Assembly: GCF_003611635.1 (NCBI RefSeq)
Contig: NZ_RAVZ01000003.1
Location: 1-64,000 of the forward strand
DNA: 64,000 nucleotides
Source: Corallococcus terminator
Lineage (GTDB): Bacteria; Myxococcota; Myxococcia; Myxococcales; Myxococcaceae
Direction: 5' to 3'
The first letter of the stretch is position 1, and every line of letters starts with the position of its first letter. The notes beneath the pieces are model-generated. The model saw only the letters and a program-made list of their open reading frames with translations, searched no databases and had not been told where the DNA came from. Below, piece after piece: positions 6,147 through 26,703 of the stretch. The translations under genes were made by a program, and so were the position numbers.

Positions 6147-6898
6147 TGCGCATCGACTTGGTCTCGCTGGGGCAGCGCGCGGCGGAGACCGTTCCCTCGC
6201 TGCTCCGCCGCATCGACCTGAAGGGGGACCGCGAGCCGGAGCTGCGGAAGTTCGAGGAGCTGTGCCTGGGCCTGCACACCCTGGCCGCCGCGTCCCTCCT
6301 GGTCGAGGGTGAGCCACGGGCCTTCAGTGAAGAGCTCCACAACGCCGCCAGTCAGTGGCTGAGATTCCTCCAGCACCAACGTGCCCGGCAGTGGGCGCCA
6401 CCGCCCGCGAGCCGGAACACGCCTTTCCTGGGTGCTGTCCTCGCCAATCACTGGGAACTGGCGCGGTGGCTCGCCGAGCTCTCGACGGACTGCTGGCGGC
6501 AAGGCGAGGAGTACGAGGACGATGCCTGCTGGGCCATCATCCTCCAGGAACTCGTGCTCACCGACGGGCGCGGCAACCCTAAAATCGAGACGTTGCTCGC
6601 GAGGCTGGAGGAACTGGAGGGGGAGTTGAACGGGCACCGCGTGGCCTGGACCCGTGCGTTGCTCGCGGCGGAGGTCGGCGCGCTCTCAGACGCCTTCTCC
6701 GCGTTGCTGCACCTTCACCAGGAGGACATTGAGGCGCGGGTCCTGGCCGTGACGGCCTCGGAGGTGAAGCTGGCGCCGTACCGATTCCTCTGGTTCGAGG
6801 GACTCGCCCTGCTCCGCTTGGCAGCGAGCGCGGGCGTCGCCCTGCCCGACGGGTACTACCCCTACTGCCCTCCCATGGCCCGGCTTCCGCGCCCATGA
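6143..6898 (+). CDS. Imm49-like immunity protein
   Basis: A 251-residue, mainly helical, soluble protein. The pattern of ANHWELARWLAELS, an acidic EEYEDDACWAIILQEL segment and a repeated LxxLEExEGEL helix resembles the Imm49 family of immunity proteins, often found in the second or third position of toxin operons. Assignment is by overall look, not a strict motif. ATGA overlap with the Imm11 gene shows co-translation. A second immunity protein behind one nuclease suggests either a two-component antidote or an orphan antidote to a toxin this strain lacks. Confidence 0.55.
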   Translation: MMRIDLVSLGQRAAETVPSLLRRIDLKGDREPELRKFEELCLGLHTLAAASLLVEGEPRAFSEELHNAASQWLRFLQHQRARQWAPPPASRNTPFLGAVLANHWELARWLAELSTDCWRQGEEYEDDACWAIILQELVLTDGRGNPKIETLLARLEELEGELNGHRVAWTRALLAAEVGALSDAFSALLHLHQEDIEARVLAVTASEVKLAPYRFLWFEGLALLRLAASAGVALPDGYYPYCPPMARLPRP

Positions 6899-21668: not shown

Positions 21669-22020
21669 GGCGGGCACCTTACCCCGCCGGTGTGCTCCAA
21701 CCCCAGACAGATGCGTTCCCATCTCCCAGGATTTTCCCGCGAGAGAGGGCCGCCTCCGGTGAGCAGTTCAATGACAGCATTATTTATTCGCCAGAGCCCG
21801 GTGCGTCATGCGGGCTTCATCCTGAAGAATAGGCCCCTCCGTGGCCCTGTTCAGAGGGAGGAAATGGGTTCGCCCTGCCTCGTCTGTCTCAAACGTTCGG
21901 GATCCGACCCTGGAAAAAAGCTCGACCCCGGGCCTTGTGGCCTTCGGGGCGGGCTGGCACCATTTGAAGCGAAATGCTGGATATGCCGGGATGGCGGATG
22001 TCGGTATGGATGCCATTCGA
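21669..22020. other. Divergent upstream region of the HExxH gene cluster
   Basis: This 352-base region is less GC-rich around 21770-21830 (GCATTATTTATTCGCC) and probably holds the promoter of the peptide cluster. In-frame ATGs of the first HExxH gene at 21991 and 22006 lie here. A Cys-rich open frame also crosses it but is probably an artefact. Confidence 0.4.
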
Positions 22021-23523
22021 ATGGAGCTCAGCGTGCAACGAACGGATGTGATCCGGCTCACCGACGGCCGCCTTCAGCATCACGAGCACTTCGGAGATTC
22101 GTCGCGGGTCGTGTTGCGCGTCAGCGAGCGCTACCGGTTCGCCCTGGAGGTGCTGGCGCGGCGGGACGCGCGTCTTCGTGACGTCGCGGGCCGTGTCGAG
22201 GCGTTGGACGCCGCGACGGCGGAGACCGTGTTCGGCGACCTGCTCGTGCGCGCGGCACTGGAGGCCGCGATCAGCCGACTGGAGACCTCAGGCGCGGACG
22301 GTGCCGCGGGTGAGGAGCTGCCCGGGTTGCTGGGTGAGGCCCTGGCCTGCGTCGCGCGAACGCCGGGCCGGTGCCTCTCCCGATCGGCGATGGGACGCGA
22401 CCTGTCCGTGGGCCCCGGGGGCAAGGTCTGGGTCTGGGACCTTCCGGAGGAGTCGACGCCCCTTCGCGACAGGCTGCGCGAGAGCATCCGCACGGGCTTC
22501 ATGCCGGGCGCCGAAAGCAGCGTCGAAATCATCCGTCCCACCCCGGCCATGGTCGCGGGACTGGAGCGCGCTTGCGCGCTGATCCAGCGGCTGGTGCCGG
22601 AGATGACGGCCAGCGTCTTCCGGCACCTCCACTCCATCGCCATCGCGAACATCCGTGGCCCCCGGGGCCGGATGTTGACGGGCTCCGGAGGGGACGGCAC
22701 CCCGTGCATGATCTTCATCGACCCGCTCGAGCTGGAGAACCCCTGGGATACGGCGGGCCACATCCTGCATGAGGCGGTGCACCTCAAGCTCTCCGACCTG
22801 ATCCGCACGGGCGCCATCGTGACGGATGACGGCCCCGTCGAGCTGGCCTGGGGCCGGAAGACCTCGCTGTCGAACAGCATCTTCGCCTACCACGCGTACG
22901 TGCACATGCAGGTGTTTCGCGCCGCCGTGGAGCACCTCGGGCCCGACTGTCATGCCGAGTTCGGCGCGCCCCGGGACTACGACGCGCCGGCCCACGCGAT
23001 GTCGGTGGTGAACAACGACACCCGCAAGCCCTTCTCCCGCGCGGAGGAGCGGCTGGACTTCCTGCACACCCAACTGGAGGGCCCCCTGGCGTCCCGGGTG
23101 ACGCCGTATGGACGCGAGATGAACGCCTGGCTCTGGGAAGCGATTCGTCCCCTGGAGGCCCTGGGGGCGGTGCCGTCTGGCGGACCGCCTGGACGGGCCG
23201 TGAAGCCTCCGGTGCTCACGCTCGGGCGGGCCCCGTCTCCGGCGCGCTATCGCCAGGGCCGGGACCTCTCCCTGCGCCGCTCGCCGTCCTCCGAGGTGCT
23301 GTTCGCCCTGGACCCGGGCTCACGGAAGATCGTCACGCTGAACCTCGCGGCCTGGCTGGCCTTCGAGCTGTGCGACGGCAAGACCGAAGAAGAGATGCTG
23401 TCTTCCTATACCGCCTCGCTGGGACTCGGTGCCGAGCGCGCCTGGGCCCAGCTCGCGCCGACCCTCGAGGGACTCGTGTCGAGTGGAATGATTGAACCGG
23501 TCTCCGAAGGGCGGGTGTCGTGA
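22021..23523 (+). CDS. HExxH-type peptide-modifying enzyme (putative alpha-KG-HExxH beta-hydroxylase) with C-terminal PqqD-like domain
   Basis: A 500-residue protein. The central domain carries AGHILHEAVHLKLSD with HEAVH at 250-254. Downstream come FAYHAYVHMQVF, whose His residues may complete the metal site, and HAMSVVNND. This matches the TIGR04267 group (HExxH putative peptide modification), recently described as 2-oxoglutarate-dependent peptide beta-hydroxylases. Residues about 420-495 form a PqqD/RRE-like domain (VLFALDPGSRKIVTLNLAAW, then CDGKTEEEML), the leader-peptide-binding module. The ATG at 22021 was chosen because it aligns with the paralogue's start. It overlaps the next gene at the stop codon. 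Confidence 0.75.
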   Translation: MELSVQRTDVIRLTDGRLQHHEHFGDSSRVVLRVSERYRFALEVLARRDARLRDVAGRVEALDAATAETVFGDLLVRAALEAAISRLETSGADGAAGEELPGLLGEALACVARTPGRCLSRSAMGRDLSVGPGGKVWVWDLPEESTPLRDRLRESIRTGFMPGAESSVEIIRPTPAMVAGLERACALIQRLVPEMTASVFRHLHSIAIANIRGPRGRMLTGSGGDGTPCMIFIDPLELENPWDTAGHILHEAVHLKLSDLIRTGAIVTDDGPVELAWGRKTSLSNSIFAYHAYVHMQVFRAAVEHLGPDCHAEFGAPRDYDAPAHAMSVVNNDTRKPFSRAEERLDFLHTQLEGPLASRVTPYGREMNAWLWEAIRPLEALGAVPSGGPPGRAVKPPVLTLGRAPSPARYRQGRDLSLRRSPSSEVLFALDPGSRKIVTLNLAAWLAFELCDGKTEEEMLSSYTASLGLGAERAWAQLAPTLEGLVSSGMIEPVSEGRVS

Positions 23524-24977
23524 TGGGTGCTTCGGACGTCATCCACGCGGCGGACCGGGCCCTCATCGCGCAGCCCTCCTTCGGAGACTCGCCGAGGATC
23601 CTCGCGAAGGTCCTGACCCGCTATCGCTTTGGCCTGGAGTTGTTCGCCGAACGGCTGCCCTCCCTGGCGCGCGCGGTGACCACCGTGGAGGCGCTCGACG
23701 ATATCGACGCACGCCGGATCTTCTTCGACCCGCTGGTCCGGCTGACGCTCGAACAGGCCTTCTCCGACCTGGAGGCCGGCCGGCTGACATCGCCCCATCC
23801 GCTGGAGGAGATGCTGCCCGGAGCGCTGGAGGCGCTTCCCCTGGGGCTGTGCGAGTCGCGCATGCCGTCGCGCTTCCGCGTGGGCACGGAGGCCCCGAAG
23901 TGGCTGTGGGACGTGGCCCAACGCGGTGATGCCTACTCCAAGGCGCTGCACTCGGCGTTCGACGGCATCTTCCTGACGAACCCCAAGAGCGGCGGGAAGC
24001 TGCTGAGCCCGGATGCGTCCGCCCAGGGGAAGATCAACGACTCCATCGCGCTGCTCTCCCAGTTGCTGCCGCATTCAGGGGCGAGCGCGCTGACGCACAT
24101 CGAGGCCATCGCGCTGCTCAGCGCCCGGCTCGAAGGTGGCACCGTCCTGTCCGCCGCCGGTGGGGACCTGACGCCCTCCACCATCTTCCTGTCGCTGACG
24201 GACCTGGGGAATCCCTGGGATGTCGCCGGGTGTCTGCTGCACGAGGGGCTTCACATGAAGCTCTTCGACGCCACCCGTTCGGTGTCCATCGCGGCGAAGC
24301 CGGAGGAGACCATCCAGGTGCCCTGGCGCGACGTCCGCTGGTCCATCGTCCGCACGGTGTTCGCCTACCATGTGTATGTCCACCTCGCGCTCTTCAAGGC
24401 CGCCGCGCTTTCGGCGGACCGGTCGCTGATTGAACGCTTCGGGGACCCGTCCGCCTACGCCACGCGCCCGCATGCGATGTCGGTGGTGAACAACGACGGT
24501 GGCTCTCGCTTCGGGCGCTCGGTGGACCGGGCGCGCTATCTGGGTGAACAGCTCCAGACGGAGTGGTCGCACCTGCTCACGCCGCAGGGGCGGGACTTCG
24601 TCCGGTGGCTGAGTGAGTCCCTGGCACCCGTCGACCGCGAGGTGTTCGGCAAGGCCTCCGCAGGGCGCGCGGGCGCCCCCGACAAGGCGGCCTACCAGAA
24701 GGTTCGCGGTCTGCGGGCCCGCCCCTCCACCCGGGGTGAGTGCCTGATGGTTTTCTCGCCGGACGCGCCAAGGCTGCATTGGCTCGATCTGAATGCGTGG
24801 TTGATCTTCGAACTCAGCGATGGCCGCACGTTCGCTGAGATGGAGCGGGCGTACCTGGAGGCGATCGGGGGGCGTGTTGCTCCCGATGAAGCACGCCGCC
24901 AGTTGCGCACGGGGCTGGAGACGCTTGTACGCAGTACCCTCGTAGAGCCAACCCGGCAGCAAGGAGACATCTCATGA
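23523..24977 (+). CDS. Second HExxH-type peptide-modifying enzyme, paralogue of the preceding gene
   Basis: A 484-residue paralogue with the same order: helical N-terminal region, AGCLLHEGLHMKLFD with HEGLH at 240-244, FAYHVYVHLALF, HAMSVVNND, and a C-terminal PqqD-like domain (LHWLDLNAWLIFELSDGRTF). Sequence outside the motifs differs widely, so the two enzymes probably act on different residues or in sequence. The ATG at 23523 overlaps the previous stop by one base, and a GTG at 23520 is an alternative. Its own stop overlaps the start of the precursor gene, so all three are co-translated. Confidence 0.75.
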   Translation: MGASDVIHAADRALIAQPSFGDSPRILAKVLTRYRFGLELFAERLPSLARAVTTVEALDDIDARRIFFDPLVRLTLEQAFSDLEAGRLTSPHPLEEMLPGALEALPLGLCESRMPSRFRVGTEAPKWLWDVAQRGDAYSKALHSAFDGIFLTNPKSGGKLLSPDASAQGKINDSIALLSQLLPHSGASALTHIEAIALLSARLEGGTVLSAAGGDLTPSTIFLSLTDLGNPWDVAGCLLHEGLHMKLFDATRSVSIAAKPEETIQVPWRDVRWSIVRTVFAYHVYVHLALFKAAALSADRSLIERFGDPSAYATRPHAMSVVNNDGGSRFGRSVDRARYLGEQLQTEWSHLLTPQGRDFVRWLSESLAPVDREVFGKASAGRAGAPDKAAYQKVRGLRARPSTRGECLMVFSPDAPRLHWLDLNAWLIFELSDGRTFAEMERAYLEAIGGRVAPDEARRQLRTGLETLVRSTLVEPTRQQGDIS

Positions 24978-25126
24978 ACAACGGATCGCAGTGGCTTGAG
25001 ACCGTGAAGGACCTCCTGGCCAAGAAGGAGCAACTGCAGGAGCCGACCGTGACGTGCGGGTCGAGTGCGGAGCGCCAGTGGTGGCCGCCGTACATCGTCT
25101 CCGACACGGCGAAGAAGGAAGACTGA
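24974..25126 (+). CDS. Putative RiPP precursor peptide, 50 residues
   Basis: An ATG overlapping the TGA of the enzyme gene (ATGA) with AAGGAG 7 bases upstream gives a 50-codon gene. Residues 1-24 form a charged amphipathic leader-like helix (NNGSQWLETVKDLLAKKEQL). After Pro24 the segment TVTCGSSAERQ leads to WWPPYIVSD (36-44) and a Lys/Glu/Asp tail. Leader plus short aromatic, Pro-rich core directly behind two RRE-bearing modifying enzymes is the signature of a ribosomally made, modified peptide. Which residues are modified is unknown; V26, T27, C28, W36, W37, Y40, I41 and V42 are candidates. I recognise no known precursor family. Confidence 0.75.
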   Translation: MNNGSQWLETVKDLLAKKEQLQEPTVTCGSSAERQWWPPYIVSDTAKKED

Positions 25127-25251: not shown

Positions 25252-26703
25252 ATGAGCACCTATGACGTCGTGGTGGCGGGAAATGGCGCGCTGGGTCTTG
25301 CGACCGCGCGTGCCCTGTCGCTCCAGGATCCGAACCTGCGCATCGCCGTGGTGGGCCCTGCGGGCAGGCCCGGTGGAGCCTCCGGCGCGGCCGGGGCGAT
25401 GCTGGGCTGCTACGGCGAGGTGACGGCCCCGCTGCTGCGCACCGCGCCGGGCCGTGCGCGCCATGCCCAGGGCGTGCTCGCCTCTCGCCTCTGGCCCGAG
25501 TGGCTGGAGGGCTTGAACAGCGAGCTGCCCGTGGAGGACCACGTGCGGCTCGATGCCGGCACCATCGTGTTCAGCAACGCGAAGTCCGGCACCATCGAGG
25601 ATGAGAACTACGCCGCCATCCAGCAGGCGGCGACGGCGGAGGGGGAGCCCTTCGAGGAGCTGGATCCAAACCATGTTCCCGGCCTGTACCCCGCGGAGGA
25701 CTGCCGGCCGAAGCGGGCCCTGTTCCTGCCGCGCGAAGGGTCGGTGGACGCAAGCCGCCTGCTGCGGGGACTCACGCGGGTGCTTGAGCAGTCCGCGAAG
25801 GTTTCGCTCATCGACGGGGCGGTCAAGGCGCTCGACGTGAACGCGGGGCGAGTCACCGGCGTCCGGCTGGAGGATGGTCGGACGCTCGCGGCCGCCCAGG
25901 TCGTGCTCGCCATGGGCGTCGGGACGCAGGCCGTCCTCGACGAGCTTCCGGACCTGGCCCGCCGCATCCCGCGCATCTTCAGCGGAGGCGGGACGTCGCT
26001 GCTGCTCCAGGTGCCCAGGACCCAGCTCAAGCACGTGGTGCGGACGCCGAACCGCGCGTTCGCCTGCGGCCTCCACGGCATGCCCCGCGCGGGCAACCAG
26101 CTCTACTTCGGCGCGACGAACATCCTGATGGCGCGGCCCATGCTGCGCACCACGCCGGCCGACATGTTCTTCCTGCTCGAATGCGTCCTGGAGCAGATCG
26201 ACCAGGACCTCTGCGCGGCGCAGCTCGTCGGCTGGCAGGCCGGCAACAGGCCCGTCACGGTGGACACGTGTCCCCTCATTGGCCCCACGTCCGTGGAAGG
26301 CCTGTGGTTGCTCACCGGCACGTACCGGGATGGCCTGTTCCAGTCGCCCCTGCTCGGCCAGCACCTGGCGCGGCGGATGCGAGGCGAGCCCGGGCTCGTC
26401 AACGAGGACTTCCTTCCGGAGCGCAAACCCATCTCACTCTACACGCTGCCGGAGGCGCGGGCGGAGGCGCTCAAACACTATCTGGCCATGGGCTGGGAGC
26501 ATGGCATCCGCCTGCCCAAGGTCGGCTGGCACCGCTCCTTCCCCCGGTTCTACCAGCAGATGCTGGACTCGCTGTACGACGAGCTGGGGGAGGAGGAGTT
26601 CGTCCTGCCACCGGAGCTGCTGGCGATCGTCGACGGCAACCGCGCGGCGATGGTGCCGTTCTTCCGCAACTACTACGCGGAGGTCCGCAAGGCCTGGGCG
26701 TGA
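25252..26703 (+). CDS. FAD-dependent oxidoreductase (DAO/ThiO-type) of the peptide cluster
   Basis: A 483-residue flavoprotein. The dinucleotide-binding motif DVVVAGNGALGLATARAL is at the N-terminus (G-x-G-x-x-G), with a DAO-family C-terminal region including DTCPLIGPTSVEGLWLLTGT for the flavin. Members oxidise amines or alcohols to imines or carbonyls. The residues after about 400 (GWEHGIRLPKVGWHRSFPRF and beyond) exceed a standard DAO fold and may form a substrate lid. The same strand and 125-base distance behind the precursor suggest a role in peptide maturation, inferred only. The ATG at 25252 sits 11 bases after GAGAGG. Confidence 0.75.
   Translation: MSTYDVVVAGNGALGLATARALSLQDPNLRIAVVGPAGRPGGASGAAGAMLGCYGEVTAPLLRTAPGRARHAQGVLASRLWPEWLEGLNSELPVEDHVRLDAGTIVFSNAKSGTIEDENYAAIQQAATAEGEPFEELDPNHVPGLYPAEDCRPKRALFLPREGSVDASRLLRGLTRVLEQSAKVSLIDGAVKALDVNAGRVTGVRLEDGRTLAAAQVVLAMGVGTQAVLDELPDLARRIPRIFSGGGTSLLLQVPRTQLKHVVRTPNRAFACGLHGMPRAGNQLYFGATNILMARPMLRTTPADMFFLLECVLEQIDQDLCAAQLVGWQAGNRPVTVDTCPLIGPTSVEGLWLLTGTYRDGLFQSPLLGQHLARRMRGEPGLVNEDFLPERKPISLYTLPEARAEALKHYLAMGWEHGIRLPKVGWHRSFPRFYQQMLDSLYDELGEEEFVLPPELLAIVDGNRAAMVPFFRNYYAEVRKAWA

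Follow-up and report, generated by a model that had tools for sequence, protein, structure and literature searches.

A conserved 50-residue peptide encoded behind tandem HExxH enzymes in Corallococcus terminator is very probably a new type of RiPP precursor and may be capped by an Orf1-type flavoenzyme

The short precursors of PQQ (PqqA, with PqqD as its partner) and of mycofactocin set a pattern that recurs at the locus described here: a small peptide, a PqqD-like recognition domain and a conserved core. Among the enzymes of the aKG-HExxH family, PesO beta-hydroxylates proline (PMC13060819), PflC beta-hydroxylates glutamine and also cleaves the backbone (PMC12636437), and BipH is assigned a late hydroxylation step of biphenomycin (PMC12707348), according to the available portions of these papers. 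Since members of the family hydroxylate differing residues and can cut the backbone, the site of action is not predictable from family membership. Then there is Orf1 of BD-12 biosynthesis, the protein in structure entries 8gri and 7xqa. As described in the accessible part of its paper (PMC10156733), this FAD enzyme oxidises glycine to an imine held as an N-O-S adduct on Cys281 and delivers a formimidoyl or iminoacetyl group onto an amine.

The window analysed is a stretch of 64,000 nucleotides of Corallococcus terminator (contig NZ_RAVZ01000003.1), and within it lies a tight block of four genes, in the order HExxH-1, HExxH-2, precursor and FAD enzyme. Its features are these:

22006..23523, + strand: HExxH-1, of the aKG-HExxH-type peptide beta-hydroxylases (TIGR04267; motif HEAVH), with a putative C-terminal PqqD-like domain
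23523..24977, + strand: HExxH-2 (TIGR04267; HEGLH at 24240-24254; alternative GTG start at 23520)
24687..24959, + strand: predicted RRE domain of HExxH-2 (residues 390-480 of its structure model)
24961..24966, + strand: Shine-Dalgarno AAGGAG of the precursor gene, 7 nt before its ATG and retained in the myxobacterial versions
24974..25126, + strand: candidate precursor peptide gene, 50 aa, recognised by its translation, recurrence, constraint and linkage to HExxH genes
25070..25093, + strand: core motif E33-R34-Q-W36-W-P38-P-Y40, an instance of the family signature ERxWxPx[Y/H/F] present in all 33 genuine distinct peptides of 41 loci
25252..26703, + strand: FAD enzyme, a relative of the Orf1 N-formimidoyl/N-iminoacetyl transferase of BD-12 (DAO PF01266; Orf1 structures)
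26065..26067, + strand: codon of Cys285, counterpart of the NOS-bridge Cys281 of Orf1 (aligned within AFACGLH; role taken from the accessible part of PMC10156733)

The longest frame of HExxH-1 opens at 21841; its likely start is the ATG at 22006 or the one at 22021, and alignment with its orthologues sets in only at about residue 69 of that longest frame. The two HExxH genes overlap (TGATG at 23521), and so do HExxH-2 and the peptide gene, the ATG of the latter (24974-24976) running into the TGA of the former (24975-24977) to give ATGA. The FAD enzyme has its ATG at 25252, with residues numbered here from 25213. The initial annotation had reported the ATGA overlap and the AAGGAG site, and both are there. 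The translation of 24974-25126, which gives the 50 residues MNNGSQWLETVKDLLAKKEQLQEPTVTCGSSAERQWWPPYIVSDTAKKED, likewise agrees with its numbering of P24, C28, W36, W37, P38, P39, Y40, I41 and V42.

The 50-codon gene is real, beyond chance. The identical peptide occurs in 4 of the 59 genomes searched (its own included), the copies differing only by synonymous changes, and the ORF, its AAGGAG and its place behind a HExxH gene are found again in other myxobacterial genera. Across ten distinct 50-aa myxobacterial versions of the MNNGS type, pN/pS is 0.20. In the same ten, pN and pS are 0.055 and 0.226 for residues 1-24, 0.014 and 0.271 for residues 25-40, and 0.086 and 0.211 for residues 41-50; against the peptide of Lysobacter Root690, the identities of these three parts are 13/24, 11/16 and 2/10. 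The peptide is under purifying selection, strongest at residues 25-40, and the profile of constraint is like that of a precursor, with a fixed core, a freer leader and a loose tail. Conservation across phyla rules out a chance ORF, and the protein-level constraint (pN/pS) rules out a frame that goes unused. Stops or frameshifts in the orthologues, or a lack of constraint, had been named at the outset as what would speak against the gene; the orthologues show neither, with the sole exception of a Kitasatospora locus (L071). It had also been thought too small for standard gene calling, a view contradicted by 45-aa homologues annotated as hypothetical proteins in two Streptomyces plasmids. No precursor family in NCBIfam or Pfam matches the window's peptide, NCBIfam has no match to six of its homologues, and a short-fragment search of the PDB returned no match.

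What selection has fixed is only in part the WWPPY core to which attention was first drawn. The first Trp (W36), P38 and the aromatic residue at 40 are conserved, W37 and P39 vary, and the unit is ERxWxPx[Y/H/F]. Family-wide, the conserved positions are E33, R34, W36, P38 and the aromatic at 40, and the variable ones C28, W37 and P39, so that WWPPY is merely one version of the family core. C28, which the initial annotation placed in the end part of the peptide, was considered as a key residue and rejected: Lysobacter has Thr in its place, the third myxobacterial genus (g12) has Gln, and actinobacteria lack it.

A small ORF with ERxWxPx[Y/H/F] is carried by 41 of 47 HExxH loci selected by their enzyme from Myxococcota, Lysobacter and Actinomycetota. 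That set takes one HExxH locus with enough flank per genome, ORF starts being picked by a simple pattern; it leaves out L104 (a 3-kb contig), L151 (same peptide as L069), L116 (same genome as L068), the duplicates L058-L063 and L067, the very weak G012 match and the plasmid matches H3-H8 and H10. A loose pattern gave 38 peptides, five of which were removed as chance, their last letter not being Y, H or F; among the 33 distinct peptides left, the last position is Y in 24, F in 5 and H in 4. The strict form, ER.W.P.[YH], falls exactly once in 33 of 39 HExxH loci, always on the strand of the HExxH gene and 0.8-1.2 kb from the HExxH codons, and it is absent elsewhere from all six frames of their 659,153 bases.

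The six loci of the 47 that have no motif are L071, L114, L115 and the distant HExxH loci L018, L053 and L054. In the enzyme tree, which carries a warning that long branches meet, the HExxH enzymes with the motif form one clade together with L071 (44 rows, support 98/93), and L114, L115 and the distant enzymes fall outside it. The Kitasatospora locus has kept enzyme and leader and lost the core motif. In the two Streptomyces loci, L115 (8075-8550) and L114 (reverse strand), the place of ERxWxP is taken by a 38-aa peptide ending SRDQRLWPPWY[M/I]QKH, behind a separate PqqD-like protein, which looks like a sister type of precursor. L053 (G112:C3, 6602-9871 and upstream) and L054 (G015:C473) hold other myxobacterial tandem HExxH genes with different precursors of the double-glycine type (...DDLDAVIGGL...GTCGSTYISCGSTYT..., in three copies in L053). 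A peptidase-type ABC transporter lies close by, as read by eye, and the whole suggests another HExxH RiPP type.

Judged from its sequence and setting, 24974-25126 very probably encodes the precursor of a modified peptide of a new RiPP family. This was the main claim of the initial annotation, and it is well supported by conservation, by linkage over three phyla and by the RRE on the enzymes.

I propose that two aKG/Fe(II)-dependent HExxH enzymes, through the RRE domains fused to them, bind the N-terminal half of the peptide as its leader. These enzymes would oxidise the core E-R-x-W-x-P-x-[Y/H/F], most likely by beta-hydroxylation. Among the core residues I favour Pro38, which never varies and is of the kind that PesO, an enzyme of this family, hydroxylates (available portion of PMC13060819); the aromatic residue at 40 or Trp36 would come next. 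A protease encoded outside the operon would then cut off the leader and possibly the variable tail as well. In myxobacteria and Lysobacter, glycine would be oxidised by the Orf1-type flavoprotein and the product kept as an N-O-S adduct with Cys285; from there a formimidoyl or iminoacetyl group would pass to a peptide amine, the simplest choice being the N-terminal one exposed when the leader is removed. Residues 19-46 of the window's peptide contain no Lys, nor do the Lysobacter peptides past the leader, which makes the freed amine the simplest acceptor to suppose. The actinobacterial cassette is reduced to one HExxH-RRE protein and the precursor, so the product there may be no more than the oxidised ERxWxP core.

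The chemistry in this scheme (the binding of leader by RRE, the site and kind of oxidation, the protease, the formimidoyl acceptor) and the biological role are what I infer. Taken as a model of leader bound by RRE, oxidation by HExxH enzymes, an unlinked protease and an Orf1-type cap, it is likely to be right. The statement that a RiPP family over three phyla has an oxidised ERxWxP core, with a formimidoyl or iminoacetyl cap in myxobacteria and Lysobacter, is put forward tentatively, at a little short of an even chance. The presence of an Orf1-related enzyme with the precursor in these two groups predicts a new kind of peptide product. A search of the literature found no described RiPP with an ERxWxP motif or an Orf1-type enzyme and no amidine-type cap described for any ribosomal peptide; most subscription papers lay outside that search, and it is not proof of novelty.

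The cap is predicted from the flavoenzyme, whose sole Pfam match is the DAO-type PF01266 (142.9 bits). A profile of its orthologues, compared with solved structures, matches "N-formimidoyl fortimicin A synthase" (8gri, 7xqa and others) over the whole length at E 8.7e-113, and the next relatives in the PDB are glycine oxidases at E 6.7e-15. The single sequence, by phmmer, aligns with 7xqa over residues 17-495, C-terminal region included, at E 1.9e-93 and 39% identity over 475 residues. The initial annotation had not recognised this kinship with Orf1. The Orf1 residues of the NOS bridge are kept (Cys281 as C285, Glu426 as E429), as are those of the glycine site (His284 as H288, Tyr294 as Y298, Arg342 as R346, Arg368 as R372), His419 of the tunnel (H422), and Thr298 and Phe316; Leu124 of the tunnel is Ile128, and Glu313 is Asp. 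Glu312, which contacts the acceptor in Orf1, is Ala316. As this is a residue of specificity and not of chemistry, the acceptor should differ from that of Orf1. A structure model of the FAD enzyme was poor (pLDDT 51.5) and was not used.

Judged by co-occurrence and neighbourhood, the four genes move together, and in these lineages the flavoenzyme belongs to the operon. The argument is threefold. Among 145 genomes of the order, the 15 with a FAD orthologue (P0004) of at least 83% identity are exactly the 15 with a P0003 orthologue of at least 74%, the HExxH genes being paired. Lysobacter has a FAD orthologue (67-71%) at the same locus, convergent and with a methyltransferase gene between. Finally, outside the window's genus the flanks of the block differ from those in the window. 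Seven further genomes of the order have a FAD relative at 50-53%, and one more has only a C-terminal remnant. In that one (L149, from G133), positions 6312-6521 encode 70 residues 93% identical to the C-terminus of the FAD enzyme; the piece holds no other gene of the operon, which has probably been lost. The relatives at 50-53% make up a second Orf1-like clade with the same AFACGLH cysteine, and in the five of seven inspected by eye (L144-L148) they lie beside NRPS-like or PKS-like genes, to the extent covered by the pieces of sequence. Since such relatives neighbour NRPS-like and not HExxH genes, the enzyme is not bound to the HExxH pathway.

Might the precursor be oxidised by the HExxH enzymes, as proposed, and the flavoenzyme oxidise the peptide in cis, with no formimidoyl transfer at all? 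It could, for example, act like a glycine oxidase on an N-terminal glycine (Gly29 after cleavage), leaving an imine or glyoxylyl end. Glycine oxidases are indeed its next relatives in the PDB, and Gly29 is invariant in the myxobacterial and Lysobacter precursors. Even so this is unlikely: the full length of the enzyme, with its C-terminal extension, fits Orf1 far better (8.7e-113 against 6.7e-15), the residues of the second site (Cys281, Thr298, His419 and Glu426 in Orf1) are conserved, and g12 also has VTQGS yet is not among the genomes with a FAD match. Transfer of a formimidoyl or iminoacetyl group is the reading I prefer.

HExxH-2 has matches in 21 of the 145 genomes of the order (15 at an identity of at least 74%, its own included, three at 46% and three weaker), and in the 18 genomes of the first two groups a related peptide lies directly downstream. 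A profile of the peptide matched 18 of 195 Myxococcota genomes strongly and one weakly (G115, E 0.003), the piece inspected from the last having no such motif. Scanning genome contigs with the enzyme alignment turned up 15 loci, including Corallococcus praedator, Archangium lansinium, Myxococcus xanthus AM003, three Lysobacter and five actinobacteria. The occurrence within the window's genus is 4 of 16 genomes. The enzyme is present in 10 of 392 Streptomyces, in 4 of 198 genomes of the Lysobacter family and in 9 of 249 of the order of Sphaerisporangium; an even sample of Actinomycetota yielded 1 in 396, the query genome itself.

One core conserved over three phyla, in small cassettes with a PqqD-like RRE and no recognised exporter, calls to mind a conserved intracellular signal or a redox cofactor on the logic of PQQ or mycofactocin, and not a secreted antibiotic. 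Such a role would explain why the core is the same across phyla and why no exporter or protease gene is at hand, and the Lysobacter copies do share one place in the chromosome, flanked by a DnaB-like gene and an Alr-like gene (read by eye). But a distribution as patchy as that in the window's genus (4/16) and in Streptomyces (10/392) is unlike a cofactor's, and some actinobacterial copies adjoin a lanthipeptide cluster. A cofactor or signal is quite improbable.

The precursor stands after the enzyme in Myxococcota and in Lysobacter, where it reads ...VTTGSADERRWWPPY..., and before the enzyme in actinobacteria, where it is an ORF of 41-45 aa with ERAWVPPY, ERSWYPPY, ERAWVPAY, ERAWLPSY, ERAWHPEF and similar. 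Two Streptomyces plasmids (L016, L017) have a class I lanthipeptide cluster, sulfotransferase included, immediately after the cassette of HExxH gene and peptide. A lanthipeptide precursor follows closely on the HExxH gene in S. globosus and S. goshikiensis. This arrangement, and the overlap of the window's ORF with the stop codon of the enzyme, would suit an ORF that encodes an accessory or activator subunit, or that acts as a leader in the control of translation, the true substrate of the HExxH enzymes lying elsewhere. That is very improbable. The ORF is conserved in codon sense and its C-terminal motif is invariant, whereas the N-terminal parts differ between phyla; its position relative to the enzyme differs between lineages, unlike that of a translational leader; and in most actinobacterial cassettes no lanthipeptide gene was noticed by eye. 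The ORF is better taken as the substrate itself.

Both HExxH proteins exceed the cutoff of 40 for NCBIfam TIGR04267 (aKG-HExxH-type peptide beta-hydroxylase), HExxH-1 with 76.3 bits and HExxH-2 with 68.7. An AlphaFold2 model of HExxH-2 (alignment of 19 sequences, pLDDT 80.5, pTM 0.73) resembles ChlB's HExxH domain as seen in its crystal structure, 8s5f (Foldseek E 4.7e-8; Z 23.1 over 295 residues, rmsd 3.7), and SjiH, 22ob (Z 22.7), for which a literature search turned up only unrelated text. There is scarcely any chance that the two act on the peptide as zinc proteases, by cutting and not by oxidation, for although PflC is hydrolytic without its leader (available portion of PMC12636437), TIGR04267 is matched above cutoff and the ChlB fold, at Z 23.1, stands far above any protease in the same list.

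As oxygenases, the two would find their substrate through the RRE. The last 90 or so residues of the HExxH-2 model match TbiB1 (5v1v, Z 10.9 over 87 residues) and PqqD (5sxy, Z 7.5). Against Pfam PqqD (PF05402, cutoff 23.4), HExxH-1 of Lysobacter scores above the cutoff at 27.5 bits, the window's HExxH-1 below it at 18.8, and HExxH-2 has no match. A separate PqqD-like protein is found in g12 and in L114 and L115, and two such proteins that were scanned gave 17.9 and 18.6 bits, below cutoff. In five Lysobacter pieces (L064, L065, L066, L157, L158) a frame change splits HExxH-2 from its RRE; as it is seen in the four genomes with a match, domain fission is likelier than sequencing error.

Several points count against the model. 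No protease or exporter, both common in RiPP clusters but not obligatory, was recognised among the genes of the operon, which leaves maturation and export unexplained; in other RiPPs an unlinked protease can serve, according to the available portion of PMC12636437. Ala316, the HExxH-1 PqqD score below cutoff, the FAD relatives near NRPS-like genes and the Kitasatospora locus weigh on the same side. The acceptors described for Orf1, moreover, are small streptothricin-type antibiotics and not peptides of this kind.

If the model is true, the HExxH oxygenases gain members that carry a fused RRE and act on an ERxWxP core, and formimidoylation by way of an NOS bridge passes beyond streptothricin-type antibiotics to reach ribosomal peptides. 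Other peptides may carry the same cap, to judge from the related flavoenzymes near NRPS-like genes in myxobacteria. The full operon is found in predatory or antagonistic soil bacteria (Myxococcus, Corallococcus, Lysobacter) and the core machinery in actinobacteria, which points to a useful product. The operon also offers a precise and cheap test: four small genes, a 50-residue substrate and defined mass shifts.

How, then, does the locus stand beside the systems already described? With the aKG-HExxH RiPP hydroxylases (ChlB/ChlH, BpmH/BipH, PflC/PosC, PesO) it has in common TIGR04267, the HExxH-x-K core, the 8s5f fold and an adjacent short precursor; it differs in the C-terminal RRE, the tandem pair and the ERxWxPx[Y/H/F] precursor, and no radical SAM or MNIO partner is seen in the operon. 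The nitrilobacillin pathway of PesO, as far as the available portion of PMC13060819 describes it, is alike in that a HExxH enzyme hydroxylates a conserved Pro of a short precursor, but the locus has no nitrile synthetase or MNIO, and the precursor motifs are unrelated. From PQQ and mycofactocin it is set apart by the lack of a radical SAM enzyme among the genes seen in the operon. With Orf1 of BD-12, a streptothricin, deposited as N-formimidoyl fortimicin A synthase, the flavoenzyme shares 39% identity over its full length and the residues of the FAD and glycine sites and of the NOS bridge. Orf1, however, acts on antibiotics of the glycinothricin type, whereas its relative here lies in an operon of RiPP type and has Ala in place of Glu312. 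The locus very probably brings known classes of enzyme together in a new combination.
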